Below are positions 34,800-55,973 of a stretch of DNA of 64,000 nucleotides, in pieces. This DNA comes from Halanaerobium kushneri (lineage in GTDB: Bacteria; Bacillota; Halanaerobiia; Halanaerobiales; Halanaerobiaceae), in contig NZ_FTNC01000002.1 in NCBI RefSeq assembly GCF_900156285.1, positions 62,001-126,000 of the forward strand, written 5' to 3'. The notes under the pieces were generated by a model. The model ran no database searches, had not been told where the DNA came from, and worked only from the letters and a program-made list of their open reading frames with translations. A program made the position numbers and the translations under genes. Within the stretch, counting starts at the first letter, position 1. Each line of letters opens with the position of its first letter.

Positions 34800-35798
34800 T
34801 TATTTATTTTGAGCCTGTACTGCTGTAATCGCTGTTAAATTAACTACATCTTCAACTGAGCAGCCGCGAGATAAATCATTAATTGGTGCTGCCAGCCCCT
34901 GTAAGATAGGACCAACCGCATCTGCACCTGCCAGCCTTTGTACAAGCTTATAACCAATATTACCTGACTGCAGATCAGGGAATACTAAAACATTTGCTCT
35001 ACCTGCAATTTCACTTTCCGGAGCCTTTCTTTGACCAACACTTTCTACTAAAGCTGCATCTGCCTGCATCTCTCCATCAATTTTTAGATGTGGAGCATTT
35101 TCGTGGGCAATTTTTACTGCCTCACGCACATTATCTACGTTTTCATGGCAGGCACTTCCCATAGTTGAGAAAGAAAGCATAGCAACTTTTGGATCAAAAT
35201 CTAGCAAGCTCTTTGCTGTATCAGCTGTTGAAATTGCAATCTCTGCCAGCTGCTCTGAATTAGGTGCTGGATTTACTGCACAGTCCGAAAAGACCATTAC
35301 TCCCTCTTCCCCAAAGCTTTTATCTTTGAGAACCATAATTAAGGCACTGGAAACTGTTGAAATACCTTCTGCGGTTTTAACAATCTGAAAAGCAGGTCTT
35401 AAAACATTACCAGTTGCATTTGCAGCCCCAGCAACCATCCCATCTGCTTTATCAGTATAAATCATCATTGTTCCAAAATAAAGTGGATCTTTTACTGCCT
35501 TTTCAGCCTCGGCTTTAGTAATTCCTTTATGTTTTCTAAGTTGATAAAATTCGTCTCTAAATTCTGCTATGTACTCAGAATCTTCCGGATCAATAATTTC
35601 AACTCCATCAAGCTCAACTCCATATTCAGCTGCAGCCTCTTTAATTGACTCCAAATTCCCCAAAATTACTATTTCAGCAATTTTTTCAGCTTCAATTTCT
35701 GCAGCTGCTTTAACTATTCTTTCATCATCACCCTCAGCAAAAACAATTTTCTGCAGCTTAGAAGCTGCTCTTTCTTTAAAATTTTTCAGTACATCCAT
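34800..35798 (-). CDS. pta: Phosphate acetyltransferase
   Basis: The 332-residue length and motifs (KIVFAEGDDERIVKAA, DGMVAGAANATGNVLRPAFQIVKT, GSACHENVDNV) mark the short-form Pta. It exchanges the CoA of acetyl-CoA for phosphate, and AckA then makes ATP. It is the last gene on the long minus-strand inositol side, where acetyl-CoA is the expected end product, so its place is metabolically sensible. It may have its own promoter. Confidence 0.95.
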   Translation of the reverse strand: MDVLKNFKERAASKLQKIVFAEGDDERIVKAAAEIEAEKIAEIVILGNLESIKEAAAEYGVELDGVEIIDPEDSEYIAEFRDEFYQLRKHKGITKAEAEKAVKDPLYFGTMMIYTDKADGMVAGAANATGNVLRPAFQIVKTAEGISTVSSALIMVLKDKSFGEEGVMVFSDCAVNPAPNSEQLAEIAISTADTAKSLLDFDPKVAMLSFSTMGSACHENVDNVREAVKIAHENAPHLKIDGEMQADAALVESVGQRKAPESEIAGRANVLVFPDLQSGNIGYKLVQRLAGADAVGPILQGLAAPINDLSRGCSVEDVVNLTAITAVQAQNK

Positions 35799-35870
35799 TT
35801 AAATATCCTCCCTAATATACTTAATATTTTAAGAGATTAGATAATATTAATAAAAGTTTGTAGTATAAAC

Positions 35871-36650
35871 CTATAAGTTTATTAACTCAACTGCTACTTG
35901 CTTAGATTCTTTTTTAGGAAACAATTCAAAACCAAGGAAGTGACTGTAATCAAGAGTTTCTAATTCTTTAAAAATATTTTTATAATTTATCTCACCTGTA
36001 CCCGGTTCACTTCTATCGGGAGAGTCAGCAACATGGATATAATCAATCACATCAATATATTCTCTTAAATTTTCAATAATATTCCCTTCCATTATCTGCA
36101 TATGATATGCATCAAATAAGACTTTGATATAGGAAGAATCTACCATTCTTGCTAATTCTGCAGAATCTTTTGTATGAGCAAGACAATTACCGTCATGATC
36201 TTTATAAGTATTTAAAGCCTCTAAAACTAACTTAACTTCAGCTTCCTCTGCAAGAGGTGCTAACTCTGATAAAACTTTATACATATTAATAAATTTCTTG
36301 TGCTCACTTATTTCATCATAGCTATCCAGTACTACACCACCTTCTCCTAGTGCATTTGAATGAATAACGAGATTATCACAATTTAGAAATTTTGCCTTTT
36401 CAATTGAAAGCTTAATATAATTAATATAATCTTCATTTTCTTGAGGATTTACTAAAGAATAATCTTTATCTCCGGAAAAACTTGATATTTCTAGATCATT
36501 TTCTTTACACAATCTTTTTATTTTTTTTAAATTCTTATCTTCCCATGACCAAAATTCAATATAATCAAAGCCTGCTTCAGATGCTAAACTAAATCTCTCT
36601 TCAAATGGATATTCCGTAAATACTGTCTCAATACAGATTGATTTCTTCAT
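35871..36650 (-). CDS. Hydroxypyruvate-isomerase-like TIM-barrel protein
   Basis: The 259-residue protein belongs to the xylose-isomerase-like/AP endonuclease 2 fold. LFDAYHMQIMEGN and IHVADSPDRSEPGTGEI are the metal and substrate regions typical of hydroxypyruvate isomerases (Hyi), and the metal Glu is in LVLEALN. It lies after the IolJ-like aldolase on the same strand. An inosose isomerase role similar to IolI is possible, since IolI has the same fold, but the motifs are closer to Hyi. The substrate is unknown. Confidence 0.78.
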   Translation of the reverse strand: MKKSICIETVFTEYPFEERFSLASEAGFDYIEFWSWEDKNLKKIKRLCKENDLEISSFSGDKDYSLVNPQENEDYINYIKLSIEKAKFLNCDNLVIHSNALGEGGVVLDSYDEISEHKKFINMYKVLSELAPLAEEAEVKLVLEALNTYKDHDGNCLAHTKDSAELARMVDSSYIKVLFDAYHMQIMEGNIIENLREYIDVIDYIHVADSPDRSEPGTGEINYKNIFKELETLDYSHFLGFELFPKKESKQVAVELINL

Positions 36651-36719
36651 AACACACCTCCCTATTTATAATAAAATTTATTATTGAAAATAAACTAAAC
36701 ACAACTTATTTAAAAATAT

Positions 36720-36830
36720 TCAAATACTTCCTTCTCCGGATTTTATTAAAGCGTATTTAGTCAACAGAGGTACAAATATTTCTGCTGCAAGTGAAGCCCC
36801 TCCAATTTCACTCCAGAGTGATAAGACTTT
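36720..36830 (-). pseudogene. Possible relic coding fragment
   Basis: In the 281-bp gap between the isomerase and aldolase genes, one minus-strand frame reads 36 sensible codons (WSEIGGASLAAEIFVPLL, then TKYALIKSGEGSI) before a stop, with a stop also just upstream. The amino-acid choice looks like a real protein end rather than noise. I cannot assign a family. It may be the last piece of a deleted gene. Confidence 0.35.
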
Positions 36831-36931
36831 TCAATAACTTATTTAATAATAATTTATCTTCTTCAATATTAATTTTAGAGAATAAAGACCTGCTTTTCTC
36901 ACAGATCCTTATCCCCTAAATAAAATTAAAT

Positions 36932-37789
36932 TTACCAGGCTTTATTGCTGCTGCCAAGTATTTTAATTTTTTCTTTTGTCTTTTCAATTACTGCATCTCT
37001 GCCAGGTCCACAATAAGTATGAACATCATAAACTTCAGGGTCCTCTGCAAAAATTTCTTTGACTCTTTTAGTAAATGCCTGCTGGAAATCAGTATTAAAA
37101 TTAACCTTGTTCACCCCATATTTAACAGCAGTCTTTAAATCCTGATCAGAAACACCAGAAGCACCATGTAAAACTAGAGGCATATCCAGTAATCTTTTTA
37201 TTTTATGAAGCCTTTCAAAATCTAATTCTGGCTTGCCCTGATAAACACCATGAGCTGTACCAACTGCAACTGCCAGGGCATCAACTCCGGTTTTTTCTAC
37301 AAATTCCTTAGCCTTATCAGGATCAGTATACATCGCATTTTTTTCTTCAACTGTATGACCATCTTCAGTTCCAGCAATTGTACCCAGTTCTGCCTCAACA
37401 CTTACTCCAACACTGTGTGCTACCTCTACAACCTTCTTAGTCATTTCTATATTTTCCTCAAACTCTTTTGTTGAAGCATCAATCATTACAGAAGAAAATC
37501 CAGCTCTAATTGCAGCTATAATACTTTCAAATCTGCTTCCATGATCTAAATGCAGTGCCACTGGAATTGATCGATCTTTAATAATTGCTTCTGTCATTCT
37601 GCTGACAGTTTCCAGACCTATATAAGGAATAATCCTTTCACTAACCTGCAGTATTAAAGGTGCCTTCATTTCTTCAGCACCGGTAACAAAAGCCTGTAAA
37701 AATTCCAGATTATTAATATTGAAGGCCCCCACAGCATAATTATTTAAGTGTGCTTCCTGCAGAAGTTCTTTCATCGGGTTTAAATTCAT
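36932..37789 (-). CDS. iolJ: Class II ketose-bisphosphate aldolase, probable IolJ
   Basis: The 285-residue protein is a zinc class II aldolase. Metal ligands are in VALHLDHGS, LVLHGASG and the Glu of VEAELGTIAG, and the phosphate loop NFNTD is present. Its length and opening (PMKELLQEAHLNNYAVGAFNINN) match both fructose-bisphosphate aldolase and IolJ. The surrounding iolC, iolB, iolD, iolE and iolG genes favour IolJ, which splits 2-deoxy-5-keto-6-phosphogluconate to DHAP and malonate semialdehyde. FBA or tagatose-bisphosphate aldolase is the alternative; an assay would decide. Confidence 0.75.
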   Translation of the reverse strand: MNLNPMKELLQEAHLNNYAVGAFNINNLEFLQAFVTGAEEMKAPLILQVSERIIPYIGLETVSRMTEAIIKDRSIPVALHLDHGSRFESIIAAIRAGFSSVMIDASTKEFEENIEMTKKVVEVAHSVGVSVEAELGTIAGTEDGHTVEEKNAMYTDPDKAKEFVEKTGVDALAVAVGTAHGVYQGKPELDFERLHKIKRLLDMPLVLHGASGVSDQDLKTAVKYGVNKVNFNTDFQQAFTKRVKEIFAEDPEVYDVHTYCGPGRDAVIEKTKEKIKILGSSNKAW

Positions 37790-37853: not shown

Positions 37854-38984
37854 TTAACCCAAAATTGAAAGCAGAGTACCGGCTGCAATTGCAGAACCAA
37901 TAACTCCGGCAAAGTTGGGACCCATCGCATGCATTAGAAGGTGATTGGATGGATTTTCTTCCTGACCTACCTTCTGTACAACTCGGGCTGCCATCGGTAC
38001 TGCAGATACTCCTGCTGCACCAATCAGTGGGTTGACCTTACCTCCACTGAATTTATACATCACCTTACCAAATAAAACTCCTACTGCTGTACCAAAGCTG
38101 AAGGCGATTAAACCTAAAACTAAGATACCAATAGTTTCGGCATTCAAAAATGCCTCTGCACTGGCTGTTGCCCCAACTGTAAGACCTAAAAATAAAGTCA
38201 CTATGTTCATTAAGGCATTCTGGGTTGTTTTAAGTAAGCGGTCAACTACTCCCACTTCCCGCATTAAGTTACCAAACATCAGACTACCTAAAAGCGGTAG
38301 GGCTGAGGGTACTAATAAACCACCAAGTAAAGTTACAGCTATCGGAAAAATGATCTTTTCCTTTTTTGTTACATGTCTTAACTGCTCCATTTTGACCTGA
38401 CGCTCTTCTTTGGTTGTTAGAGCCTTCATAATCGGTGGCTGAATAATCGGTACTAAAGCCATATAGGAATAGGCTGCTACTGCAATCGGACCTAATAGAT
38501 GTGGTGCCAGTTGACTGGCTGAAAAGATAGCTGTCGGTCCATCAGCTCCACCAATAATTCCAATCGCACCTGCTTCTGCAGGTGAAAAACCTAAGGCTAT
38601 TGCTCCAAAAATAGTAGCAAAGATACCAAACTGGGCTGCTGCACCTAAAAGGGCAGTTTTAGGCTGGGCGATCATCGGCCCGAAGTCAGTCCAGGCTCCA
38701 ACTCCCATAAAGATAATTGGAGGATAAATACCGAGCTTAACTCCCTGGTAGAGGTAGTATAATAAACCTCCTACCTGACCATCTTTCCCGGCTGCCATCA
38801 GTCCTCCTAAGGGCAGATTAACTAAGAGCATCCCAAAACTGATCGGCACTAAAAGCAGGGGCTCATATTCTTTGACCACTGCCAGATACAAAAGTATGGA
38901 GGCAATGATGATCATTATAAATTGTCCAAGCCCCAGGTTTAAATAACCTGTTGACTGGATAAATAGTGAGATCTTATCTAACAT
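37854..38984 (-). CDS. Na+-pump decarboxylase beta subunit
   Basis: The 376-residue, very hydrophobic protein matches the beta subunits OadB/MmdB/Gcd[35 protein letters not shown] and the conserved [21 protein letters not shown] region. This subunit decarboxylates carboxybiotin and pumps Na+ outward. It is the fourth decarboxylase gene in order (A, D, C, B). The IS element after mmdA separates it from the alpha subunit gene. Confidence 0.93.
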
Positions 38985-38995: not shown

Positions 38996-39415
38996 CTATT
39001 CGATTACCAGCAGTATGTCTTCTGCATCAACACTGTCTCCGACTCTTACTTTGATATCTTTGACTGTTCCTGCCTCAACTGCAGTAATTTCGTTTTCCAT
39101 CTTCATTGCTTCTAAGACTATTAAGGTATCACCTTTGCTGACAGTTTCACCTTTTTTAACATTGATCTCTAAGATGCTGCCGGGCATTGGTGCCACAACA
39201 TCACCTTCACCAGCTTCAGCAGATGCTGCCATCTCTTTTTGTGGTTCTTTTTTTGGCTTTGGTGCTGCCTTTTTAGCTTTAGTTTTAGGAGCAGCTGAAC
39301 TTCTGCTGCCTGCACTGGTTGTGCTTTTTACTGCAGAACTACCAGTTTCACTTCCTATTTCTTCAACATTTACAATAAATTCTTCACCATCTACCTCAAC
39401 TCTAAATTTTTTCAT
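38996..39415 (-). CDS. Biotin carboxyl carrier subunit of the decarboxylase
   Basis: The 139-residue protein has a short N-terminal segment, an Ala/Pro/Lys/Ser linker (residues 25-70), and a biotinyl domain with Lys105 in VLEAMKMENEI. This is the MmdC/GcdC design. The biotin arm carries CO2 from the carboxyltransferase to the membrane beta subunit. It lies between the delta and beta genes with short spacing. Confidence 0.94.
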   Translation of the reverse strand: MKKFRVEVDGEEFIVNVEEIGSETGSSAVKSTTSAGSRSSAAPKTKAKKAAPKPKKEPQKEMAASAEAGEGDVVAPMPGSILEINVKKGETVSKGDTLIVLEAMKMENEITAVEAGTVKDIKVRVGDSVDAEDILLVIE

Positions 39416-39429: not shown

Positions 39430-39768
39430 CTATCTCTTCCAGTTTTGATTACTTTTTTGAATGGATATTATCCGATAATTTTTTTGATCATTTAAACTTT
39501 CATAAATTGCTGCTGTTACTGCTGCTATCTTTTGCGGAGAAAATCCCTCTTCAGCAGCCGCAGTTTCAGCTTCAGCTGCTGACTTATTTTCAGCTTTTGA
39601 AATTTCTCTTTTCTTTTCAACCTTATTTTTGCTTTTCTTTTTCGATCCACTTTCCGGTCCAAATAGTTTTCCGCTGAAATGGAGGAAAACTGAGAGCAGA
39701 TAAAGGGAAAGGAAAACTGTTCCCATTCCTATTATCAATAACTCCAGACCAAGAACATAATTATTCAT
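39430..39768 (-). CDS. OadG/MmdD-type small membrane subunit
   Basis: This 112-residue protein has a single N-terminal membrane helix (LELLIIGMGTVFLSLYLLSVFLHF) followed by a Lys/Glu-rich stretch and the short conserved PQKIAAVTAAIYESL end of the OadG family. It tethers and stabilises the decarboxylase complex. It is the first gene after the IS1182-type element, only 31 bp away. Confidence 0.88.
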   Translation of the reverse strand: MNNYVLGLELLIIGMGTVFLSLYLLSVFLHFSGKLFGPESGSKKKSKNKVEKKREISKAENKSAAEAETAAAEEGFSPQKIAAVTAAIYESLNDQKNYRIISIQKSNQNWKR

Positions 39769-39973
39769 ACTTTCACCTACTTATTACTATTTTATAGTTA
39801 AGCGAATTTCATAATACACTTAATTTAGTTTAATTCAAAAAAATATTGTCTGCGAATCATAAAAATAAGCCTTTTAACTTGAAATTGTAGATTTTAATGA
39901 TTTACCATAGATTTACTGCTAAATTCAGACGCACTTAGCTTGGGTAACTTAAAATCATGAATTTAGAAGCTAT

Positions 39974-41167
39974 TTAAGCAGCTAAAACCTGATTTTGGAG
40001 TTTGATTTTCTTGGCTGCAATTCTTGCAGCTATCAAACTGATAGAACTTAATAGCAAATGAGTTTTAACTTTTTTGGCCCCCATTACAGTTAAGTTCTCT
40101 AAATTTAGATGCTCTTTTAGTCTGGGAAAAGTTCTTTCAACACTGGTTCTTTTGTTGTAGATCTTTCTCCAGGTTCTAGAATCTCTATGTGGAGTTGATA
40201 TATATCTTGGATTTTCTTTTGGTCTTGTTTTAGTTACCTGACCGTAATTGCTGTCAGAACACCACTTAGTTCCGTGAATACAATCAACTTTACCACATAC
40301 ATGTGGGCATCTGAATTTGTTGACTCCCTTGTAATGACCCCAGTAATACATTTTGTGTCCACCACTGCAGACTGGTGTTCCTTTAAAATCATAGAATCCA
40401 GCTGGTGGCTGTTTAGCATTACGCTTGTTGATTGGGATAATGGCCTGAGAATCCTGCTCAAAGAGAATATGCTCATAGATATCAGTAGTATCATAACCTG
40501 AATCCATAGTCCAATATTTTGGTTTAATCAAATCTCTTTCAGCTAAAAAGTCATTAACCTTTTCAACTAAAGGTATTGCCTGGGTTTTATCTGAATGATT
40601 GGCTGGAGTTAAAGTTAAAGCAATCGGTAATTCTGATTTAGTTTCAACTGCAGCATGTATCTTCCAGCCAAACCATGTTATCTGATTTTTATGAGAGTCG
40701 AATTTAGTACCCCAATCAGGGGTAAAGGAATTTTCTTTATCTATCTTTGACCTTGACTTAGCTCTTTCATAAGCTTCAAGCTTTGAAGCATCAATAGCCA
40801 TTGTCTCAGTCTCTAATAGATTAAGTTCTATACTCTGATCTAAAAGATTATTCATTAGTAATTCTAGACCATCAGTCTCAGATAATTTGCTGTAATATCG
40901 GCTGAAAGTTGCTTCACTGGGCACCCTGCCAGTGGTAGAAAAACCACAGACATATCTGAGATATGGACTTCTATCAATTTTGCTTACTAAGTCTGCTCTG
41001 GTAGGAATCTTTTCAATCTGCTGGACCAGAAAAGCTCTTAAAATAGCTTCTGGATTATATCCAGTTGGTCCTTTATTAGACTTAGGTTTTATCTTTTCAA
41101 CAATAGGTTTAAGATCAATAGGATCTAAAATACAAATTAATTTGTCTGTTTCCGATAAATTTAGCAA
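39974..41167 (-). CDS. Transposase, IS1182/IS5-like DDE
   Basis: The N-terminal DUF772-like domain (LVQQIEKIPTRADLVSKI, YLRYVCGFSTTGRVPSEATF) is followed by a DDE domain (MAIDASKLEAYE, YWTMDSGYDTTDIYEH, RTSVERTFPRLKEHLNL). The TTG at 41167 has no good ribosome site. The frame stays open and protein-like upstream (NNIRQECLFPFEEL), with an ATT codon at 41207-41209 six bases after AAGGTGA, so the true start may be ATT at 41209. No ATG or GTG is available there. The reading frame looks intact. Confidence 0.85.
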   Translation of the reverse strand: MLNLSETDKLICILDPIDLKPIVEKIKPKSNKGPTGYNPEAILRAFLVQQIEKIPTRADLVSKIDRSPYLRYVCGFSTTGRVPSEATFSRYYSKLSETDGLELLMNNLLDQSIELNLLETETMAIDASKLEAYERAKSRSKIDKENSFTPDWGTKFDSHKNQITWFGWKIHAAVETKSELPIALTLTPANHSDKTQAIPLVEKVNDFLAERDLIKPKYWTMDSGYDTTDIYEHILFEQDSQAIIPINKRNAKQPPAGFYDFKGTPVCSGGHKMYYWGHYKGVNKFRCPHVCGKVDCIHGTKWCSDSNYGQVTKTRPKENPRYISTPHRDSRTWRKIYNKRTSVERTFPRLKEHLNLENLTVMGAKKVKTHLLLSSISLIAARIAAKKIKLQNQVLAA

Positions 41168-41190
41168 TTCTTCAAAGGGAAAGAGACACT

Positions 41191-41276
41191 CTTGTCGAAT
41201 ATTATTAATAGGGCTTCACCTTCTTTCGTATTTTATGGGTGCTACTATTTAATTCGACAAGATGGGGTGAAGCCCT
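41191..41276 (-). promoter_or_regulatory. Transposase leader with interleaved stems hiding the ribosome site
   Basis: Two inverted repeats interleave: CTTGTCGAAT (41191-41200) with ATTCGACAAG (41252-41261), and AGGGCTTCACC (41210-41220) with GGTGAAGCCCT (41266-41276). The second stem contains the AAGGTGA ribosome site. The order A-B-A'-B' allows either a pseudoknot or two exclusive folds. Confidence 0.75.
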
Positions 41277-41425
41277 TTTTATATCATTAAAATCTTTGTT
41301 ATATCAAGGCTTATTTTTATGAAATTCGCTTAGTTAAATAACTTTATAGTTAAAGAATTGCATTTTTTTCTTTTAGATCAGTTTAATAACTCTGATATAT
41401 CAAAGTATTTTTAAGCGGAACTCTT

Positions 41426-42976
41426 TTAGAGTGGAATGTTGCCGTGCTTTTTATCCTGACCATCTTCTTTTTTATTGCTCATCATCTCTAAACCATTGAT
41501 CAGCTTGGCTCTGGTCTCTTCCATCTTGATGACATCATTGACCATCCCTCTTTTTGCTGCAATATATGGATTAGCGAAATTATCTTTGTAATCATCTATT
41601 TTATCCTGGCGCAGCTGCTCTGGATCATCTGCTTTAGCAATTTCTTTTCTGTAAATTACATTGGCTGCACCCTCTGGACCCATAACTGCTATTTCTGCTA
41701 TCGGCCAGGCATAGACCAGATCAGCTCTCACTGAGCGGCTGCCCATTGCTATATAGGCTCCACCATAAGCTTTGCGCATAATTAAAGTTATCTTGGGTAC
41801 TGTTGCTTCTGAGTAAGCATAAAGCACCTTAGCACCATGGCGGATTACTCCCCCATATTCCTGTTCTGTACCCGGCATATATCCCGGCACATCAACTAAA
41901 GAGATAATCGGGATATTGAAGCTGTCTAAAAAGCGGATAAAGCGAGCTATTTTAGTTGAAGCATCAATATTTAAACAACCTGCCAGATGCTGGGGCTGGT
42001 TGGCTACTATACCAACACTGCGTCCGTTGAGGCGGGCAAAGCCGACTACTGCGTTCTGAGCAAAGTAGGGCTGAACCTCCATAAAGCTATCTTTATCTGC
42101 CAGAATATCGATAACATCTCTGACATCATAAGCTTTCTGAGGGTTTTCCTGAACAATTTCTTTCAGTTCTTCAGTGCTGCGGCCCGGATCATCCTGAACC
42201 TCAAGCTTTGCCGGCTCTTCTTTAAAATTATCCGGTATGTAGGATAAGAGGCGCCTGATATTATCTAAGGCAGCTTCTTCACTGTCTTCCATAAAGTGGG
42301 CAACACCGCTGACCTGGTTGTGGGTGGCTGCTCCACCGAGTTCTTCTGCTGATACTTCTTCACCGGTTACTGATTTAATTACACTGGGTCCGGTGATAAA
42401 CATCTTTGAGGTCTGGTCGACCATAAAGATAAAATCTGTGATCGCTGGTGAATAGACTGCTCCACCGGCACAGGGACCTAAGATCGCTGTAATCTGAGGT
42501 ACTACTCCTGAAGCTTTGGTATTGCGGTAGAAAATCTCACCATAGCCGTTTAAAGAATCTATACCCTCATTAATGCGCGCTCCACCGGAATCATTAAGAC
42601 CGATTACCGGGGCACCGTTTTTAACAGCTAAATCCATTACCTCAGAGATCTTATTGGCATGTGCTTCACCAACTGAACCTCCCATAACTGTAAAGTCCTG
42701 AGCGTAAACATAGACCAAACGGCCTTCAATTGTACCATAACCGACTACAACTCCCTCTCCTGGAACTTCCTTTTCGTCCATTCCTAAAGATGTGCTGCGG
42801 TTTTCTACAAACATATTCAGTTCATTAAAAGTACCATCATCTAATAGATATTCTATTCTTTCTCTAGCGGTTTTTTTATTCTTTTTATGCTGTTTTTCGA
42901 TTCTGGCCTGGCCGCCACCAAGACGAATCGTTTCTTTTTTATTTTCTAAAGACTTTTCCTTATCTTCTACTGACAT
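41426..42976 (-). CDS. mmdA: Acyl-CoA carboxyltransferase alpha subunit of the Na+-pump decarboxylase
   Basis: The 516-residue protein is a crotonase-fold carboxyltransferase like MmdA/PccB (GGGQARIEKQHKKNKKTARERI, ARINEGIDSLNGYGEIFYRN, MGGSVGEAHANK, PEGAANVIYRKEI). It transfers the carboxyl group from an acyl-CoA to biotin. It is not OadA-like, so the substrate is malonyl-, methylmalonyl- or possibly glutaconyl-CoA rather than oxaloacetate. With no methylmalonyl-CoA mutase nearby and an acylating dehydrogenase next door in an inositol cluster, malonyl-CoA is proposed. The ribosome site is AAAGGTGG. Confidence 0.9.
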   Translation of the reverse strand: MSVEDKEKSLENKKETIRLGGGQARIEKQHKKNKKTARERIEYLLDDGTFNELNMFVENRSTSLGMDEKEVPGEGVVVGYGTIEGRLVYVYAQDFTVMGGSVGEAHANKISEVMDLAVKNGAPVIGLNDSGGARINEGIDSLNGYGEIFYRNTKASGVVPQITAILGPCAGGAVYSPAITDFIFMVDQTSKMFITGPSVIKSVTGEEVSAEELGGAATHNQVSGVAHFMEDSEEAALDNIRRLLSYIPDNFKEEPAKLEVQDDPGRSTEELKEIVQENPQKAYDVRDVIDILADKDSFMEVQPYFAQNAVVGFARLNGRSVGIVANQPQHLAGCLNIDASTKIARFIRFLDSFNIPIISLVDVPGYMPGTEQEYGGVIRHGAKVLYAYSEATVPKITLIMRKAYGGAYIAMGSRSVRADLVYAWPIAEIAVMGPEGAANVIYRKEIAKADDPEQLRQDKIDDYKDNFANPYIAAKRGMVNDVIKMEETRAKLINGLEMMSNKKEDGQDKKHGNIPL

Positions 42977-44574: not shown

Positions 44575-44988
44575 TTATAAACTGTCAAAACGTCTAATAA
44601 TTTCATTATCGATTTCACTTTCATCAACATTTAATCCATGTTCCATTGGGTCTCCATTTTCATCAACAAAAACGAAGGTAATAAAACAATCTGCAACTAT
44701 ATCTTCTGTATTATTATTTTTATGTGCTTTTCCATAAACTACAAAACTGGTCCTGCCAGATCTAATCATTTGTGTTTCAATATTTAAAATATCACCCTTA
44801 TCAGTTGGAATATAAAAGCTGAGCTCATGTATTTTTACACAGACAATATTTTCTGGGTGTTGAGTAGTTTGAGCGCCATTAATAAAGCAGGCTTCGACAA
44901 ACCACTCAGCCATTCTTCCTGCATAAAGGGTCCCATGATGATTTAAGTTATCCGATTTTACTAAATGTGAAAAATTCATTTTTTTCAT
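44575..44988 (-). CDS. Hotdog-fold acyl-CoA thioesterase
   Basis: The 137-residue protein has the hotdog pattern HHGTLYAGRMAEWFVEACFINGAQ with a long helix, then INIETQMIRSGRTSFVVYGKAH, as in YciA/acyl-CoA hydrolases. The ATG at 44988 follows AAAGGAG. It lies 41 bp before the acylating dehydrogenase gene on the same strand, so it may release CoA from a stalled or unwanted thioester. The substrate is unknown. Confidence 0.8.
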   Translation of the reverse strand: MKKMNFSHLVKSDNLNHHGTLYAGRMAEWFVEACFINGAQTTQHPENIVCVKIHELSFYIPTDKGDILNIETQMIRSGRTSFVVYGKAHKNNNTEDIVADCFITFVFVDENGDPMEHGLNVDESEIDNEIIRRFDSL

Positions 44989-46568: not shown

Positions 46569-46598
46569 AAAATCACCCCCCAAAGCTTTTTTAGGCTA

Positions 46599-48562: not shown

Positions 48563-50497
48563 CTAATATTGTCTGGCTTTTTTGATTTCGTTTTCTAATT
48601 CCTGGTGTGCCTTTTTTACACTGTCTTTCTTTGCTACCTCAGGCACTCCAACTCTCCACCAGGAGTCATAACCGTGAGTCATTGTTTTTGGTAAAACTTT
48701 CACATCTATTAAAGTTGAGACCTCACTTTTTTGGGCTTCTTTAACAGCCTCTCTTAATTCTTCAATATTTTTGACAGTAAAAGTATTTACACCATAAGCA
48801 GCCGCGCTGGCAGCAAAATCAATCGGAATTAAACAGCCGTCCAGCTCTCCACTTTCCTGGTTTCTGTATCTGAATTCTGTACCAAAACTTCCCATTCCCT
48901 GAGACATCTGCAGGTTATTGATACAGCCAAAAGCCATATTGTCAAATAAAATAACATTAATTTTTTGACCTTCCTGAATACTGCTTATTAATTCAGAATG
49001 AAGCATTAAATAACTGCCATCTCCAACCATTGAATATACTTCTTTATCGCCAGCTGCAAGTTTTACTCCATATGACCCTGAAATCTCATAGCCCATACAG
49101 GAATATCCATACTCCATATGATAAGTCCCGGGTTTTTTGGGTCTCCAGAGCCGCTGTAAATCTCCAGGTAAACTGCCCGATGATCCCACAACTATCGAAT
49201 CATCAGCAAGTAATTTATCTAATTCTCCTAAAACTGCTGTCTGAGTTAATACACTTTCTGTATCAGCATTAAATTCTGTCAGTACTTCATCAATATGTCC
49301 TGCTACTTCTGGAGTAAAATTATCAGCGTTATATTCTAAATTAAATAATCTTTCTGATTCCTGCAGCCACTCAGCTTTTACTTCTTCAATTTCATTCTGA
49401 TATGAGCTGCTGTAATCAGCTTCTTTTAGGGTCTCAGTTAAAGATTCTAAGGCAAGTTTAGCATCTGCAGTTACCGGCAGAGCATCCATTTTGTAAGCAT
49501 CAAATTCGCAGACATTAATCCCTATAAATTCTACCTCCGGGTTCTGGAATAACTGTTTGGAAGCAGTTGTAAAGTCCATAAAGCGGGTTCCAACCCCGAT
49601 TACAAGATCTGCATCTCTGGCAATTTTATTGGCTGCAGAATTTCCTGTTACACCAATTCCACCGAGATTAAGTTCATGATCCCAGACAATTGATCCTTTA
49701 CCAGCCTGAGTTTCACCAAATGGGATTTTAAATTCTTCGGCAAATTCTTTAAATTCTGCTGCTGCCTCTGAATATCTAACTCCTCCACCACAGATTAAAA
49801 GTGGCTTTTTCTTTTCTTTAATCAGCTGAGCAGCCTCAGCCAATACTCTCTGGTTGGCAGGTCTTCTTTCCAGATGATGTACTCTCTTTTTAAAGAACTC
49901 TTCTGGATATTCATAGGCTTCTGCCTGCACATCCTGTGGTAAAGATAAGGTGACCGCACCTGTTTTGGCAGGATCTGTCAGCACTCTCATTGCATTAATC
50001 GCAGCTGTCATCAGCTGTTCCGGTCTATTAATTCTATCCCAGTATTTGCTTACAGATTTAAAGGCATCATTTGTTGTGATATTATAATTTTCTGGATGCT
50101 CAACCTGCTGCAAAACTGGATCGGGCTGTCTGCTGGCAAAGGTATCTCCAGGCAGTAATAATAAAGGAATTCTGTTGGCTGTTGCAGTTCCTGCTGCTGT
50201 TACCATATTTGCCGCTCCAGGTCCAATAGAAGAAGTACAGGCATAAATTTTTTGTCTATTATTTTGTTTGGCAAAGGCTGTTGCTGCATGGGCCATTCCC
50301 TGTTCATTTCGCCCCTGGCGAACTATTAAATCTCCTGAATCTTCTTCTAGAGCCTGACCGAGCCCCACAACATTACCGTGTCCAAAGATTGTAAATACTC
50401 CCTCTACAAATTTCTTTTCCTGACCATCTACTTCCAGATACTGATTATCAAGAAATTTTACCAGTGCTTGAGCAACTGTTAATTTTATTGTACTCAA
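48563..50497 (-). CDS. iolD: 3D-trihydroxycyclohexanedione hydrolase, ThDP-dependent
   Basis: The start is TTG 50497, with AGGAGG at good distance; an upstream ATG (50524) lies before the ribosome site. The 644-residue protein is colinear with Bacillus Iol[44 protein letters not shown], and the ThDP motif [12 protein letters not shown] to [14 protein letters not shown]. It opens the ring to 5-deoxy-glucuronate. It is one of the clearest identifications in the window. Confidence 0.97.
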
Positions 50498-50569
50498 TTT
50501 AACTCCTCCTATATTAAATATCAATTAAGAATTGACTTATGCTTATTTAATTATTCAAAGTCTATAAGT

Positions 50570-51361
50570 TTATTTTTCAGGCCAAATTTTAGCATCTTTA
50601 TCATAGAGCCAGGTATGCTCAGGAATATCTATTCTATCAGTCCAGGGATTAGATTCTAAATGTCTAATCATCCAGCAGATATACATTGCATATCCTGGAG
50701 CAGATGTCTGCGGATGTGATAGGCCGCCGGGAATAGTTACAGTATCATTATGAGTAACTCTAACTACATCATCATCTAAAAAGGCAGCACCAAAGCCCTG
50801 TGGTTTATTAAATCTGTAGTAATAAACTTCCGGCTGAGCATGGCTGTGGGGTGGGAAACTTGACCATTTTCCGGGATAAGTAATTGATTCACCCATAACC
50901 ATGTTAGAATAAGGAGCAGTTTCATAATCAAAAACTGTTCTTACCTTTCTGGTAGCTGTATTATTCATTAAACCATCACCAAACATATCAACCCTGCAGT
51001 CTTCTGGTTTGTAGAATACAGAATCAAAATCTTTATCATTTCTGGTCTTCTGAATCAGTACTTCTGACTGTGAAAGAGCTTCAACTTCTACCTCTACCCC
51101 TTTACTTACATGTAGTACCCAGGGCTCTTCATCAAAACAGGATTCTCTTTCTGCTTTTTCTTCTTTACCCTCCCATTTATAAATAATTTCTCCATTTATC
51201 AATAGTAAGGCCATTTCTTTTTCATCACTTTTTAGTTTGAAATTTTGATCAGCTTCAAGACTTAAAACTCCAACATCCATCAGCATTGTGCTATATTTGC
51301 CGTCTAATTCTGTAATTTTATTATAACCTAATTCAAATTCATTTTCTCTTTCTATTAACAT
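50570..51361 (-). CDS. iolB: 5-deoxy-glucuronate isomerase
   Basis: The 263-residue bicupin has the metal cupin PPHSHAQPEVYYYRF and GGLSHPQTSAPGYAMYICW, as in IolB. It converts 5-deoxyglucuronate to 2-deoxy-5-keto-gluconate, the IolC substrate. AGGAGG precedes the ATG. It lies between iolC and iolD in one operon. Confidence 0.95.
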   Translation of the reverse strand: MLIERENEFELGYNKITELDGKYSTMLMDVGVLSLEADQNFKLKSDEKEMALLLINGEIIYKWEGKEEKAERESCFDEEPWVLHVSKGVEVEVEALSQSEVLIQKTRNDKDFDSVFYKPEDCRVDMFGDGLMNNTATRKVRTVFDYETAPYSNMVMGESITYPGKWSSFPPHSHAQPEVYYYRFNKPQGFGAAFLDDDVVRVTHNDTVTIPGGLSHPQTSAPGYAMYICWMIRHLESNPWTDRIDIPEHTWLYDKDAKIWPEK

Positions 51362-51383: not shown

Positions 51384-52403
51384 CTAGTCTCTAACTACTC
51401 TTTCCCCGTATTCTTTTTTCTTTTCTTCTATAAATTCTTTGATTTCATCTGCTGTAGGCATCGCATCTGAACAGCTGTGAGCTGAGACCAGCATTGAGGC
51501 AGAAGCACTGCCAAATTCTAAGGCATCAAGAATATCCCAGTCTTCTAATAAACCATAGATGAAGGCAGAAGCATAAGCATCTCCACCACCAAAAGACTTA
51601 ATCATTTCTACAGGGAAGATCTTAACATCATAACTTTCCCCTTCAAGAGTATAGGCGGTTGATCCTTCTTTACCGTGTTTAATTACAACTAGTTTACTGT
51701 TAAAGCTAAACCAGTGTTCTGCAACCTCTTTATCAGTTCTATCTTCTTCCTTAATTATCTTTTCCATATAGTTAAACTCAGAGCGTGAGCCGATAATTAT
51801 ATCACTTTTTTCTGCCACCTTGGTATAATAAATACCTGTTTCTGCTTCACTCTTCCAGGAATAAGGGCGGTAATCAATATCAAAAATAACTTTAACATTA
51901 TTTTTAACAGCATATTCTACTGCCAGTAAAGCCGCCTGACGGGAAGGCTCAGCTGATAAAGCAGTACCCGAAATTAATAAAGCTTTAGAATTCTTAATAT
52001 AATCTTCGTTTATGTCATCTGTGCAGAGTTTTAAGTCAACTGCTTCATTGCGGTACATTAAAATACTGCTTTCTGTCTTGCTTTTAATTTCTGTAAAAGT
52101 CAGTCCTGTTTTGGCACCAGAGCTGTCAACAGGCATATTTGAAATATCAATACCTTCATTTTCAAAATACTGCAGCACATAATTCCCAAATTGATCATCT
52201 GCAACACGGCCAATAAAACCTGTCTCTTTATTTAAACGAGCCATTCCTATTGCTACATTGGCGGGTGAGCCACCTACATATTTTGTGAAAGTTTCTGTCT
52301 CTTCCAAAGTTGTGTAGAGTTCATTCGCATTTAAATCTACTGCAGCTCTTCCGAGTGCAATTAAATCATATTTTTTATTCTGATCAAAATTTATGTTATT
52401 CAC
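51384..52403 (-). CDS. iolC: 5-dehydro-2-deoxygluconokinase
   Basis: This 339-residue PfkB/ribokinase-family enzyme has VGGSPANVAIGMARL near residue 45 and the catalytic SFGGGDAYASAFIYGLL near residue 275. It starts at GTG 52403 behind AGGAGG. It phosphorylates 2-deoxy-5-keto-gluconate, which the IolJ-like aldolase then splits. It is the first catabolic gene after the transporter genes. Confidence 0.94.
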   Translation of the reverse strand: MNNINFDQNKKYDLIALGRAAVDLNANELYTTLEETETFTKYVGGSPANVAIGMARLNKETGFIGRVADDQFGNYVLQYFENEGIDISNMPVDSSGAKTGLTFTEIKSKTESSILMYRNEAVDLKLCTDDINEDYIKNSKALLISGTALSAEPSRQAALLAVEYAVKNNVKVIFDIDYRPYSWKSEAETGIYYTKVAEKSDIIIGSRSEFNYMEKIIKEEDRTDKEVAEHWFSFNSKLVVIKHGKEGSTAYTLEGESYDVKIFPVEMIKSFGGGDAYASAFIYGLLEDWDILDALEFGSASASMLVSAHSCSDAMPTADEIKEFIEEKKKEYGERVVRD

Positions 52404-52424: not shown

Positions 52425-53390
52425 TTATGCTTTTTTCCTTCTTAAAACATCAATGTAAACAGCAACTATAATAACTGTACCCAAAACAACTGTCTGCAGA
52501 CTAGCTGCAACTCCTAAAAGATTAAGACCATTTCTGATAACTGCAATTATCATGGCACCAATTAGAGTACCCCAGATAGTACCAACTCCACCAAGGAAAC
52601 TTGCTCCACCAATGATAACCGCTGCAATTGCATCTAATTCGTAACTTAAACCGGCATTAGGATAGGCTGCATTTACTCGACCCATTAAAACAATACCACC
52701 CATAGCTGCCATTAATCCAGAAATGGTATACACCCAGGTTAAAACCTTTTTAGTATCAATACCTGATAATCTTGCTGCTTCCGGATTTCCACCAACAGCA
52801 TAGATATGTCTACCAAGAGTAGTTTTATTTAAAAAGAAGTGAAAAAATACTACAACAGCGATTACAAGAATAAAACTAAAAGGTATCTGCCCTATATAAC
52901 CTGAACCAATAAACTGAACCCAACCAGGTAAGCCAGAAACAGGAGAAGAATTAGTTATAATCAAAGCCAGACCTCTAGCCACATTCATCATACCTAAAGT
53001 AGAAATAAATGGGTGAGGTAGGTTTAATCTTGTTAGTAAAAGTCCGTTTGTTAAACCAGCTGCTGCACCAACTGCAAGTACAATTAAAATTCCAATAACA
53101 GGATTGATTCCATAATTAACAATTGAAAGACCACCAATTGAAATAGATAACGCCAACACAGATCCAACTGAAAGATCAATACCAGCAGTCAGAATTGCTA
53201 AGAGCATACCTGATGCTACTAAAGCATTAATGGAAGCCTGCTGCAGTACATTAGTTATATTATTTACTGTTAAAAAATATGGTGAAATAAAAGATAAAAC
53301 AATTACTAAAAATAATAGTCCAAATAAAGCTCCTAACTTTTCAAAAATTATGTTTTTCCATTTAATTAAGTCATTATTTGCCTTTTCCAT
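52425..53390 (-). CDS. Inositol ABC transporter permease, RbsC type
   Basis: The 321-residue membrane protein has about ten hydrophobic segments and the RbsC-family signature LAILTAGIDLSVGSVLALS and AVGGNPEAARLSGI. It forms the channel of a ribose-type (CUT2) importer. Its place between the ATPase and iolC supports myo-inositol as cargo. Confidence 0.92.
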   Translation of the reverse strand: MEKANNDLIKWKNIIFEKLGALFGLLFLVIVLSFISPYFLTVNNITNVLQQASINALVASGMLLAILTAGIDLSVGSVLALSISIGGLSIVNYGINPVIGILIVLAVGAAAGLTNGLLLTRLNLPHPFISTLGMMNVARGLALIITNSSPVSGLPGWVQFIGSGYIGQIPFSFILVIAVVVFFHFFLNKTTLGRHIYAVGGNPEAARLSGIDTKKVLTWVYTISGLMAAMGGIVLMGRVNAAYPNAGLSYELDAIAAVIIGGASFLGGVGTIWGTLIGAMIIAVIRNGLNLLGVAASLQTVVLGTVIIVAVYIDVLRRKKA

Positions 53391-53415: not shown

Positions 53416-54909
53416 TTAACTTACAGTAGCTGCACTCATGATTTTTTCTTGAGTGGCTTCTTTTACATCCATTTCCGCAGTTAGTTTTCCTTCACTGATC
53501 ACTAAAATTCTATCACTAACCCCTAAAATCTCTGGCAATTCTGATGAAACCATAATTACTGATTTACCCTGACCTATCAGCTCATTGATAATATTATAAA
53601 TTTCTACTTTTGCACCAACATCAATACCTCGGGTAGGCTCATCAAAAATAAATATCTCAGCACTGGTATTCAGCCATTTACCAATTACAACCTTCTGCTG
53701 ATTACCTCCACTTAACTGTTTTGCTTTAGTGTGAATTCCAGGAGTTTTGATTTTTAAGTTGCTTACATATTTCTCAGTGTCTGCTGCCTGCTGTTTTAAA
53801 TCTAATAAAATATTTTTCTTATATTTGTTTAAATTAGATGAAACAATATTAAATTTAACAGTCTGATCTAAAAATAAGCCCTGAGTTTTTCTGTCTTCTG
53901 TTAATAAGACCATTCCTTCTTCTAGAGCATCTTTAGGATGATTAATTTCAACTTTGCGGCCGTTAATGTAAATATCTCCACTGTCTTTTTTATCTGCACC
54001 TATAATTGTTCTAACTAATTCTGTTCTGCCAGCTCCAACCAGACCTGCAATTCCCAGCACTTCACCTCGATGAGCTGAAAAAGAAATATCATTAACAATT
54101 TTGCCGCGTTTTAAATTTTCAACTCTTAAAACTTCTTCGCCTCTATCTATATCTATTTTAGGATACTGCTCATCAATATCTCTTCCGACCATATCCCTTA
54201 CTATGTCTTCTTCTGTAACATCTGCTATATTATTAGTAGATACATACTGTCCATCTCTTAGAACAGTAACTCTATCGCCAATTCTTTTGGCCTCACTTAA
54301 CTTGTGAGATATGAAAATCATTGTTACACCTTGTTCTTTCAATTTCTCCATAGTTTTCAAAAGTTCATTTACCTCATCTTCACCCAGAGAAGATGTTGGC
54401 TCATCTAAAATCAATAAATTAACATCTACAGAAAGAGCTTTTGCTATTTCGACCATCTGCTGTTTCCCTACACCTAAATCCTGTATTTTAGCAGTAGGAC
54501 TAATATCCTGATTCAATCTTTTTAAAATATCGCTTGTTCTTTCTTCCATATATTTGCGGTCTATTATTCCTAATTTTTTATTCTTTTTAATTTCTCTTCC
54601 CATAAAAATATTTTCAGTTACATCTAACTGCTGAATTAAATTTAATTCCTGATAAATTGGTATAATTCCATTATCTAAGGCTGTTCTTAAATTGTTTTCT
54701 TTAATCTCTTTTCCATCAATTGTGATTTTACCGCTGTCTGGCTGATGAAGACCTGTTAAAATTTTAATTAAAGTTGATTTTCCAGCTCCATTTTCTCCGA
54801 TAAGAACATGAATTTCACCTTTTTTAACTTCTAAATTAACATTATCCAAAGCTTTAACTCCAGGAAAAGTTTTTGTGATATTTTCGATTTTTAAAAATGT
54901 TTCGCCCAT
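53416..54909 (-). CDS. Inositol ABC transporter ATPase, RbsA type
   Basis: The 497-residue protein has two fused nucleotide-binding domains. The first has GENGAGKSTL and LILDEPTSSLG; the second has a degenerate Walker A (GLVGAGRTELVRTI), LSGGNQQKVVIGKWL and IFDEPTRGIDVGAK. This asymmetry is standard for RbsA/MglA ATPases. It lies in the order binding protein, ATPase, permease, iolC. Confidence 0.94.
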   Translation of the reverse strand: MGETFLKIENITKTFPGVKALDNVNLEVKKGEIHVLIGENGAGKSTLIKILTGLHQPDSGKITIDGKEIKENNLRTALDNGIIPIYQELNLIQQLDVTENIFMGREIKKNKKLGIIDRKYMEERTSDILKRLNQDISPTAKIQDLGVGKQQMVEIAKALSVDVNLLILDEPTSSLGEDEVNELLKTMEKLKEQGVTMIFISHKLSEAKRIGDRVTVLRDGQYVSTNNIADVTEEDIVRDMVGRDIDEQYPKIDIDRGEEVLRVENLKRGKIVNDISFSAHRGEVLGIAGLVGAGRTELVRTIIGADKKDSGDIYINGRKVEINHPKDALEEGMVLLTEDRKTQGLFLDQTVKFNIVSSNLNKYKKNILLDLKQQAADTEKYVSNLKIKTPGIHTKAKQLSGGNQQKVVIGKWLNTSAEIFIFDEPTRGIDVGAKVEIYNIINELIGQGKSVIMVSSELPEILGVSDRILVISEGKLTAEMDVKEATQEKIMSAATVS

Positions 54910-54927
54910 AAGCTCTCCTCCTAAATA

Positions 54928-54947
54928 CGGCCCCGTTTAAGGGGCCG
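54928..54947 (-). promoter_or_regulatory. Intercistronic hairpin after the inositol-binding-protein gene
   Basis: CGGCCCC (54928-54934) pairs exactly with GGGGCCG (54941-54947) around six bases. It lies between the binding-protein stop and the ATPase ribosome site and has no T run directly behind it, so it may protect the upstream message from 3' decay. Confidence 0.7.
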
Positions 54948-54965
54948 CAATAATTTAATTACTAG

Positions 54966-55973
54966 TTAATCCAAGAGTTCTTCAATTAACTCTTCACCAA
55001 AGATAGTTTCAAGACGATCTCTACTGAAAGCCTTAGTTAAATCCTTAATAGCTGCATCTACATTATCTGCATCAATTATATTGGTTGGTACTGGAACAGT
55101 TTTTTCTACTTCTTCACCATTTAGAGTTTTTACCATCAATTCTACACCAGTATAACCAATATTATAGGAGTCCTGCTGAATTGTAGCTGTTAATTCACCA
55201 TTTCTGATTGACTTAATTGCATCTGGTGAGCCATCAAAGCCCATTACAGCAACATCTTTATCAACATTTGCACTCTTAAGTGCTCTTAAAGCACCCAATG
55301 CCATCTCATCATTTGTACCATAAACACCATCGATATCTGGATATGTTTGCAGGATATTCTGCATTACACTAACAGCCTGACCTCTTTGACTATCAGCAGG
55401 TTGAGTAGTTACTATTTCAATATCTGAATCTTTTACTGCATCCAGAAATCCTTCTACTCTTTGATCATGAATATAATCTCCAGCTGCTCCTCTTACAATT
55501 GCTATTTTTCCTTTGCCGTTTAGCTTTTCTTCCATATAATTTCCTGCCTGCTGAGCTGCTAAAAAGTTACCTGTCCCTGCAAAAGAAGTCTTACCTTCAA
55601 AATCAGCATCAGTATCTATGGTTACTACTGGAATCCCGCGATCAACTGATTTCTTTAAAACATTCAGTGCTGCAGAAGGTCTTAAAGGAGCAACAACCAG
55701 ACCATCAACCATTCTAGAAATCTGATCTTCTAATAAGTTGATCTGCTGCATAACCTGAGTTTCATTACTGGGACCAACTACTGAAACATCAACACCCATA
55801 TCTTCTCCTGCCTGCTCTGCACCGGCCTGAACTGACTTCCAGTAATCACTGTTTGTCGCTTTCAGAACTACAGAAATTCTGTATTCTTCGTCAGCTTCAG
55901 TTTGAGCAGATACTGTAACTGTTAGACCTAAGATCAATGTCATAGCTATGAATAAGTAAAATAATTTTTTCAT
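54966..55973 (-). CDS. Periplasmic inositol-binding protein
   Basis: This 335-residue ribose-type binding protein has a Sec signal (KKLFYLFIAMTLILGLTVTVSAQ) with an AxA-type site and no lipobox Cys. The mature part has the two-lobed fold (YRISVVLKATNSDYWKSVQAGAEQAGED, DGVYGTNDEMALGALRAL, VAVMGFDGSPDAI). It is the first gene of the transport and iol operon, with AGGAGG upstream. Inositol as ligand is inferred from the operon. Confidence 0.9.
   Translation of the reverse strand: MKKLFYLFIAMTLILGLTVTVSAQTEADEEYRISVVLKATNSDYWKSVQAGAEQAGEDMGVDVSVVGPSNETQVMQQINLLEDQISRMVDGLVVAPLRPSAALNVLKKSVDRGIPVVTIDTDADFEGKTSFAGTGNFLAAQQAGNYMEEKLNGKGKIAIVRGAAGDYIHDQRVEGFLDAVKDSDIEIVTTQPADSQRGQAVSVMQNILQTYPDIDGVYGTNDEMALGALRALKSANVDKDVAVMGFDGSPDAIKSIRNGELTATIQQDSYNIGYTGVELMVKTLNGEEVEKTVPVPTNIIDADNVDAAIKDLTKAFSRDRLETIFGEELIEELLD

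Follow-up and report, generated by a model that had tools for sequence, protein, structure and literature searches.

In the Bacillus-type Iol pathway, IolG, IolE, IolD, IolB and IolC together with the IolJ-type aldolase convert inositol to dihydroxyacetone phosphate (DHAP) and malonate semialdehyde, and the pathway includes IolA. Here we analyze an inositol gene cluster of Halanaerobium kushneri that encodes the same set of enzymes, with an IolJ-like protein as the aldolase, but, with no IolA over the model cut-off, contains genes for a coenzyme A (CoA)-acylating aldehyde dehydrogenase (ALDH) and a biotin decarboxylase complex. The cluster occupies positions 34800 to 55973 on the minus strand of the window, that is, the 64,000-nucleotide stretch of contig NZ_FTNC01000002.1 (positions 62,001 to 126,000) to which all coordinates refer unless another locus is named. 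The complex resembles methylmalonyl-CoA decarboxylase, MmdADCB, in its four kinds of subunits, its biotin motif and its Na+-site residues. However, the set in the window is linked to the inositol genes and the ALDH gene rather than to mutase and epimerase genes, and its proposed substrate is malonyl-CoA.

Other described systems are comparable in part. SauS and SqwD belong to the same protein family as the ALDH and use an analogous acidic aldehyde, but the ALDH falls in a separate clade, differs at residues 406 and 412, and has neither a CoA ligase gene nor sulfonate genes nearby. Contacts K70 and S243 of Clostridium kluyveri SucD are retained in the ALDH as K74 and S247, although SucD is distant (356.9 bits with structure 8cei) and the proposed substrate of the ALDH is one carbon shorter and is oxidised. 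Na+-dependent malonate decarboxylation in Malonomonas and Sporomusa likewise involves Na+ pumping powered by a malonyl thioester; in Malonomonas, an acyl carrier protein thioester and MadB are used. The substrate there, however, is external malonate, and the MadB-type model TIGR03136 scores far below its cut-off in the window (186.7 vs 596.9 bits).

No route leading from inositol through malonyl-CoA to a Na+ pump was described in the titles and abstracts of the open PubMed Central (PMC) literature searched. On sequence evidence, we consider such a route, with Mmd as the pump, the best explanation of this locus and a likely one; what is new is the enzyme that would connect the known pathway to the known pump, its best curated model being one for another substrate. 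Genes were called from NCBIfam scores (bits, with the model cut-off) and Pfam, and some neighboring genes were named by eye. The genome of the window (G000; 3.22 Mb, 53 contigs, 99.5% complete) was compared within a sample of the order, comprising 38 genomes with G000 included, 12 of them of the genus. All the genes that an earlier note on this DNA had named are present on the minus strand; those of the proposed pathway are:

51384..52403, minus strand: iolC, 5-dehydro-2-deoxygluconokinase (TIGR04382, 401.4 bits, cut-off 300)
50570..51361, minus strand: iolB, 5-deoxy-glucuronate isomerase (TIGR04378, 111.7 bits, below the cut-off of 205, E 4e-32; operon position)
48563..50524, minus strand: iolD, trihydroxycyclohexanedione acylhydrolase (TIGR04377, 982 bits, cut-off 715)
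47649..48545, minus strand: iolE, inosose dehydratase (TIGR04379, 398.5 bits, cut-off 290)
46599..47609, minus strand: iolG, inositol 2-dehydrogenase (TIGR04380, 489.2 bits, cut-off 355)
43151..44533, minus strand: CoA-acylating ALDH, proposed malonate-semialdehyde dehydrogenase, malonyl-CoA forming (SauS model NF047625, 548.1 bits, below the cut-off of 600)
41426..42976, minus strand: mmdA, full-length alpha (carboxyltransferase) subunit (TIGR01117, 855 bits, below the cut-off of 998.8; match covering positions 4-512 of 512)
39430..39768, minus strand: mmdD, OadG-type membrane subunit (PF04277, 45.8 bits, cut-off 27; TIGR01195, 38.8 bits, cut-off 36.05)
38996..39415, minus strand: mmdC, biotin carrier subunit with EAMKM motif (PF00364, 74 bits, cut-off 22.1; NF047903, 92.5 bits, below the cut-off of 200)
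37854..38984, minus strand: mmdB, Na+-translocating carboxybiotin decarboxylase (beta) subunit (TIGR01109, 512.5 bits, cut-off 190.6)
36932..37789, minus strand: IolJ-like class II aldolase, an extra fructose-bisphosphate aldolase (FBA) paralogue (TIGR01859, class II FBA, 372 bits, cut-off 343)

In the proposed pathway, an ATP-binding cassette (ABC) transporter would take up inositol or a close polyol, which IolG, IolE, IolD, IolB, IolC and the IolJ-type aldolase would convert to DHAP and malonate semialdehyde. The ALDH, in the place of IolA, would form malonyl-CoA from malonate semialdehyde, CoA and NAD(P)+. MmdADCB would load biotin with the free carboxylate of malonyl-CoA and decarboxylate the carboxybiotin in the membrane, yielding acetyl-CoA and CO2 with export of Na+, and acetyl-CoA would be turned into acetate by Pta and acetate kinase. 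The genes are ordered as ABC transporter, iolC-B-D-E-G, a gene for a 168-residue protein, LacI-family regulator, 4HBT thioesterase, ALDH, mmdA, an insertion sequence (IS), mmdD-C-B, iolJ-like aldolase, isomerase and pta. As far as the aldolase, intergenic gaps measure 11-64 bases, with the exceptions of ALDH-mmdA (174) and mmdA-mmdD (1657, containing the IS); downstream, 281 bases separate the aldolase from the isomerase and 72 bases the isomerase from pta. Malonyl-CoA use by this Mmd, Na+ coupling and expression of the cluster on inositol are predictions that we infer from these genes.

IolC, IolD, IolE and IolG exceed their curated cut-offs, and IolB does not. The lack of IolA that the earlier note had reported extends to the whole genome, where the best match to TIGR01722 reaches 31.6 bits against a cut-off of 448.5; the ALDH itself scores 23.1 bits with this model. 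A control search with TIGR01722 gave scores above the cut-off in 5 of 14 named genomes. Across the phylum sample, iolD is above the cut-off in 18 of 398 genomes, two of which, both of the genus of the window, have the ALDH. Among 22 iolD genomes examined, nine have IolA only (judged by the cut-off), six the ALDH only, none both and seven neither. Mutual exclusion of IolA and ALDH was dropped as proof, since four of the six ALDH-only genomes belong to one genus and the other two were found via the ALDH. The aldolase, described as IolJ-like in the earlier note, scores as a class II FBA, with no IolJ model among its NCBIfam matches; the extra paralogue is limited to iol-bearing genomes of the order (3 of 38: G000, G015 and G017; 88-100% identity). 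The housekeeping FBA of these three genomes lies at a separate site and is 70-71% identical to the IolJ-like copy.

Within the order, iolD is over the cut-off in the genomes G000, G015, G017 and G018 (4 of 38), and the ALDH occurs at 76-100% identity in exactly the same four; stand-alone homologs were detected in two further genomes, G035 (61%) and G007 (50%), without iol genes over the cut-off. The same gene set, which the earlier note had proposed to look for in related genomes, recurs in three relatives of the window, and in G018 it is rearranged yet kept together, with the order substrate-binding protein, ATPase, permease, iolC-B-D-E-G, gene without family, LacI, mmdA-D-C-B, ALDH. The G018 cluster contains no match to the IS, the thioesterase, iolJ or pta, and no IolJ-like aldolase gene was found beside it. 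Its MmdA is 76.6% identical to that of the window and 77.7% identical to the second copy of its own genome, so that the cluster copy is not a fresh duplicate. An alpha-mannosidase-like gene (by eye) comes after this cluster.

The ALDH carries the residues expected of a CoA-acylating dehydrogenase for a carboxylated semialdehyde. Its best-scoring solved sequences are 5j78 (top), an acetylating acetaldehyde dehydrogenase, and C. kluyveri SucD (8cei). C246 aligns with the catalytic Cys, and K74 and S247 align with the carboxylate contacts of SucD, in which the distal carboxyl group is bound by Lys70 and Ser243, as described in PMC10249356. Both positions are Ala in 5j78 and in AdhE (6tqh), and eight AdhE/EutE-like rows of our alignment have neither residue, position 74 being A or S and position 247 A, T or I. 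Acetaldehyde was rejected as the substrate on the basis of K74/S247. The Lys-Ser pair is present in 68 of 76 family rows; seven have R and L, and the remaining one (L138) is in the wrong frame. It is also present in three rows of another genus cluster that are 41% identical to the ALDH of the window. This other polyol-like cluster, found in G011 (L042:859-13094) with related loci in G012 and G020, comprises an ABC transporter, iolG-like and iolE-like genes and the acylating dehydrogenase; G011 also has SucC/SucD-like ligase genes.

Residues 406/412 are W or Y/F in all five iol-linked rows (those of the window and G015 are near-identical), in 8 of 10 aminotransferase-linked rows and in both rows linked to transaldolase-like and mmdA genes. 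The two exceptions are L105 (W/M), the aminotransferase-linked row beside mmdA, and L116 (L/S). In contrast, these residues are F/S in all 15 rows that have sulfonate-type genes as neighbors and come from 14 different genomes; such loci match the sulfo-TK variant with SqwD and SqwKL presented in PMC12890257. In a tree of 79 rows, the ALDH of the window belongs to a fully supported clade of four, which includes the G035 protein, and all 14 sulfonate-linked rows form with L116 a separate clade. Sulfoacetaldehyde was rejected as the substrate because of this separation, residues 406/412 and gene context, the 20 genes scanned at 34800-55973 including neither a sulfoacetate-CoA ligase nor any sulfonate gene. 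The SauS cut-off is not decisive, as the sulfonate-linked G007 protein also falls below it (531.7 vs 600), and none of eight further ALDH homologs, this one included, passed the cut-off of NF047625. Malonate semialdehyde is the predicted substrate.

The Mmd complex has the components expected of a Na+ pump: a beta subunit with Na+-site residues, a biotin carrier and an OadG-type subunit. In the PDB 6iva alignment, MmdB residues D148, S327 and N357 correspond to D203, S382 and N412 of oxaloacetate decarboxylase, which are Na+-site residues of the Salmonella beta subunit according to PMC7274780; N392 of that enzyme is replaced by Q337. The TIGR01117 cut-off for MmdA was passed in none of the 38 order genomes. 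The acyl-CoA specificity of the alpha subunit, invoked in the earlier note, does not separate malonyl-CoA from methylmalonyl-CoA and so is a weak argument. Position 422 of PccB, which we take to have a role in acyl-CoA choice, was rejected as a malonyl-CoA marker because the residue aligned with it is Ile in all 23 MmdA rows and cannot separate the copies. Given that MmdA of the window is close to mutase-linked copies, we think that the enzyme takes both malonyl-CoA and methylmalonyl-CoA. Acetyl-CoA carboxylation through reversal of methylmalonyl-CoA decarboxylase was reportedly the subject of a 1984 article by Dimroth and Hilpert, to go by its title. Together with a mad gene setting in Anaerovirgula multivorans and a fab setting in G022, this makes malonyl-CoA use by such pumps likely. 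The A. multivorans contig (L182) carries, at its edge, the start of mmdA (about 34 residues), preceded by genes for a CaiB-type CoA-transferase and for the malonate transporter proteins MadL and MadM, these two over cut-off. In G022 (L223:2296-7881), mmdA (868.7 bits, short of its cut-off) and a gene for a small mmdC-like protein (33%) come after fabH-fabD-fabF, which are over cut-off.

The search for methylmalonyl-CoA mutase, which the earlier note had proposed, gave a divided outcome. No PF01642 match was detected in G015, G017 or G018, each listed as 99% complete, which leaves their iol-linked pump unexplained by the succinate-propionate route; the window genome, however, has a mutase elsewhere (C15), with B12-subunit-like and epimerase-like genes (by eye). 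Absence of the mutase was weakened as proof of a malonyl-CoA role by the finding that 11 of 26 MmdA-only order genomes have no mutase match, whether or not they have iol genes. Among the 12 genus genomes, two mmdA loci are present in the four iol-bearing ones and one in the other eight; in G015 and G017, these loci are split across contig ends, and the count rests on fragments. Two mmdA are likewise present in G022 and G023, outside the genus.

Homologs from other phyla place the ALDH next to inositol or mmd genes as well. One genome per species (84,980 species) was scanned, yielding at least 590 stretches, at least 581 of them relatives. The best 80 were kept, and their neighborhoods were searched to the ends of each locus with 30 proteins as tblastn queries. 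The homologs linked to iol genes or mmdA in A. multivorans and in two metagenome-assembled genomes (MAGs), Anaerolineae Ch9 and a spirochaete, are 50-57% identical to the ALDH. The gene order is iolG-iolC-ALDH-iolJ-iolB-iolD-iolE in A. multivorans (L086) and iolB-transaldolase-like-iolD-iolE-iolG-ALDH in Ch9 (L108; iolB and iolE match at 23-26% only), and neither genome has an IolA over the cut-off. The iol-linked ALDHs of the window genus, A. multivorans and Ch9 occupy three separate places in the tree, which suggests more than one recruitment into iol operons. In the spirochaete MAG (L105), the order is aminotransferase-ALDH-mmdA, with no mutase match in that MAG. In Anaerolineae L088 and L090, mmdA is divergent from a run of sugar-ABC, transaldolase-like and ALDH genes, about 10 kb from the ALDH. 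The remaining 75 of the best 80 have neither an iol operon nor an mmdA match in the stretch examined. The transaldolase-like protein of the Anaerolineae runs (L108:4969-6099, PF00923; L088:8871-9977 and L090:8857-9978, by eye) possibly performs the IolJ step. The genome-level evidence lends support to the malonyl-CoA/Na+ route put forward in the earlier note, through the absence of IolA, gene linkage, mmd without a mutase match in three of the four iol-bearing genomes, the carboxylate residues of the ALDH, the Na+-site residues of MmdB and these neighborhoods.

The other features of the locus are:

56235..56435, minus strand: operator-like repeat TTTGYAAACRTTTRATATT, four copies preceding the operon (four of the five window matches, at most three mismatches)
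54966..55973, minus strand: sugar-binding protein of an RbsB-type ABC transporter, with which the cluster begins (PRK10653, 188 bits, below the cut-off of 337; also in the G017 and G018 clusters)
53416..54909, minus strand: ABC transporter ATPase, AraG/XylG type (NCBIfam)
52425..53390, minus strand: ABC transporter permease (NCBIfam)
46077..46583, minus strand: protein of 168 residues without a family (no NCBIfam or Pfam match; homologs in G015, G017 and G018)
45044..46057, minus strand: LacI-family regulator, probable regulator of the cluster (NCBIfam; also in G015, G017 and G018)
44575..44988, minus strand: 4HBT hot-dog thioesterase (PF03061, 24.8 bits, cut-off 20.6; no match in the G018 cluster)
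39790..41341, minus strand: IS1182-type IS in the mmdA/mmdD gap, transposase 39974-41167 (inverted repeat pair; no match in the G018 cluster)
36874..36920, minus strand: terminator-like hairpin 3' of iolJ (-26.9 kcal/mol over 76 nucleotides folded, z -7.29)
35871..36650, minus strand: xylose-isomerase-like TIM barrel enzyme, probably a separate unit (PF01261, 146 bits)
34800..35798, minus strand: pta, phosphate acetyltransferase, probably a separate unit (TIGR00651, 408.7 bits, cut-off 311.2)

The operator-like pattern was read from the window sequence, and only the G017 and G018 matches are independent. It has five matches in the window, a number reached in none of 100 shuffles, the pattern being built from these same sites. 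The repeats of the window lie about 260-460 bases before the transporter gene, and three such repeats precede the transporter gene of G017. In G018, the gap of 354 bases that precedes mmdA contains one site with two mismatches (64 of 20000 simulated gaps matched at two mismatches or fewer), and a second, partial copy is readable in the same gap. This site ties the mmd-ALDH genes to the inositol regulon, with the caveat that the sites resemble LacI-family operators in general. No site was found in the 430 bases examined before the G018 transporter, nor, with up to five mismatches, at three places in the window, namely, between the ALDH gene and mmdA, ahead of the isomerase gene and ahead of pta; a generic LacI operator pattern gave no matches.

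The strong hairpin after iolJ indicates that the isomerase and pta probably form a separate unit. Furthermore, pta is absent within the 8 kb examined beside iolJ in G015, and in G017 (L219:3222-4003) only remnants of pta (29 residues matched) and acetate kinase (a 97-residue frame) follow iolJ, perhaps a trace of an older iolJ-pta-ackA order. Accordingly, pta, which the earlier note had counted as part of the gene set, is a weak argument. The 168-residue protein is common to all four iol clusters of the genus, and in G011 and G012, relatives 36-38% identical to it lie close to the other polyol cluster. Several transposase-like genes (by eye) are found at 56819-63994, upstream of the iol cluster, with 58629-59336 and 62924-63994 being related copies. 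A bacterial microcompartment locus at 494-8495 includes acetate kinase, two shell proteins, an RnfC-like protein, a EutE/PduP-like dehydrogenase, a PduL-type phosphotransacylase and a class II aldolase.

Several observations weigh against the proposed route. MmdA of the window is 91.7% identical to the mutase-linked copy of its own genome, where a second mmdA-C-B set flanks the mutase and epimerase-like genes, and 96.3% identical to the mutase-linked MmdA of G014; with Ile at the position aligned with PccB-422 in all 23 rows, it is thus not visibly specialized. Four of the eight genus genomes without iolD over the cut-off (G011, G012, G013 and G019) have mmdA and no mutase match, implying that Mmd has some other job in the genus. 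In A. multivorans and Ch9, no mmd match was detected closer than 10 kb to the ALDH of the iol operon; in Ch9, an mmdA-C-B set is on the same contig, about 0.5 Mb away. Co-transcription is unsure because of the IS in the mmdA/mmdD gap, which may cut mmdD-iolJ expression in this strain, and a weak hairpin (z -1.3) in the ALDH-mmdA gap; the start of mmdD is intact despite the IS, and the transposase reads in the direction of the operon. Other routes must also exist, given that 7 of the 22 iolD genomes are without both IolA over the cut-off and the ALDH. Finally, Halanaerobium polyolivorans was reported not to grow on inositol in PMC10536098, which fits the patchy distribution.

Some of these observations would be accommodated if the ALDH were a decarboxylating stand-in for IolA that gives acetyl-CoA, and mmd a displaced copy of the propionate-pathway pump. 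The iol-linked ALDHs of A. multivorans and Ch9 without mmd nearby, and the proximity of MmdA to mutase-linked copies of the genus such as that of G014, agree with this explanation, but we regard it as unlikely because the ALDH is of the SucD/SauS type and barely scores with the IolA model, mmd stays with the ALDH in two differently ordered genus clusters and in L105, and three of the four iol-bearing genomes have no mutase match. The last point also bears on a scheme in which malonate semialdehyde is converted to acetaldehyde, the ALDH is an acetylating acetaldehyde dehydrogenase and Mmd serves methylmalonyl-CoA. Despite the relationship of the family to AdhE and EutE, with 5j78 as the best-scoring solved sequence, and the mutase and epimerase-like genes of the window genome, this scheme is highly improbable: K74/S247 set the ALDH apart from the AdhE/EutE-like rows, and the genome already holds an AdhE-length homolog (C25, 865-residue frame) and a EutE-like protein (window 3625-5031).

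Malonyl-CoA might instead serve mainly fatty-acid synthesis, or Mmd might carboxylate, with energy conservation not being the point. The near-exclusion of MmdA and AccD/AccA described below and the fabH-fabD-fabF-mmdA linkage of G022 are in line with this option, which we nevertheless find very unlikely in view of the catabolic setting (transporter, LacI regulator, aldolase) and because all four genomes have another mmdA locus besides the iol-linked one. The least probable explanation is that the ALDH acts on sulfoacetaldehyde, as SauS/SqwD, and is placed here by chance or for sulfonate use. Sulfoacetaldehyde is the sulfonate analog of malonate semialdehyde, and SauS is the best NCBIfam model (548 bits); however, the score is below the cut-off, although so is that of the sulfonate-linked G007 protein, the protein falls outside the clade of the 14 sulfonate-linked rows, the iol-linked rows have W or Y/F rather than F/S at 406/412, and the cluster is without sulfonate genes.

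MmdA-type and AccD/AccA-type matches are nearly exclusive among the 38 order genomes: 26 have MmdA alone, 10 have Acc alone, 2 have both and none has neither. For Acc, this tally covers AccD and AccA; the model used for MmdA, TIGR01117, is not one for AccD, and the division runs along families. Mmd may have taken the place of acetyl-CoA carboxylase, and the near-exclusion together with the fab linkage of G022 indicates that Mmd-type proteins probably handle malonyl-CoA for lipid synthesis. In G035, G033, G036 and G021 (L192, L216, L217 and L222), mmdA and mmdC (with mmdB in three) lie beside nucleobase-permease-like and PucR-like genes (by eye). These loci also encode an FdrA-type protein (model match in G033), with fabF nearby in G033 (model), G035 and G036 (by eye); the G033 permease matches NCS2 over the cut-off. 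The G035 ALDH gene adjoins an alanine-dehydrogenase-like gene, a class III aminotransferase and an M20 hydrolase, a context readable as beta-alanine or taurine; beta-alanine is preferred because the mmd set of this genome (93% complete) lies by nucleobase-permease-like and PucR-like genes and there is no mutase match.

We tentatively extend the proposed route to a broader, rather doubtful possibility: the ALDH and the Mmd pump might form a portable, energy-saving module for malonate semialdehyde, hosted by inositol degradation in Halanaerobiales, by aminotransferase routes such as that of beta-alanine (in the spirochaete; unlinked in G035) and by a sugar route in Anaerolineae, with the same Mmd-type enzymes replacing acetyl-CoA carboxylase in Halanaerobiales. 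If so, one kind of enzyme would both make and spend malonyl-CoA against the Na+ gradient.

If the route proposed for the window is correct, it would give inositol breakdown a second type of final step, in which the energy of decarboxylation, lost with CO2 release in the usual IolA route, is saved as a Na+ gradient, and the malonyl-CoA/acetyl-CoA reaction of Mmd pumps would gain a physiological role. A testable annotation rule follows, namely, that K74/S247 combined with W or Y406 and F412 marks probable malonate-semialdehyde enzymes as opposed to sulfoacetaldehyde dehydrogenases. Such energy saving would be relevant to a fermenter that gains few ATP per sugar and lives in salt.

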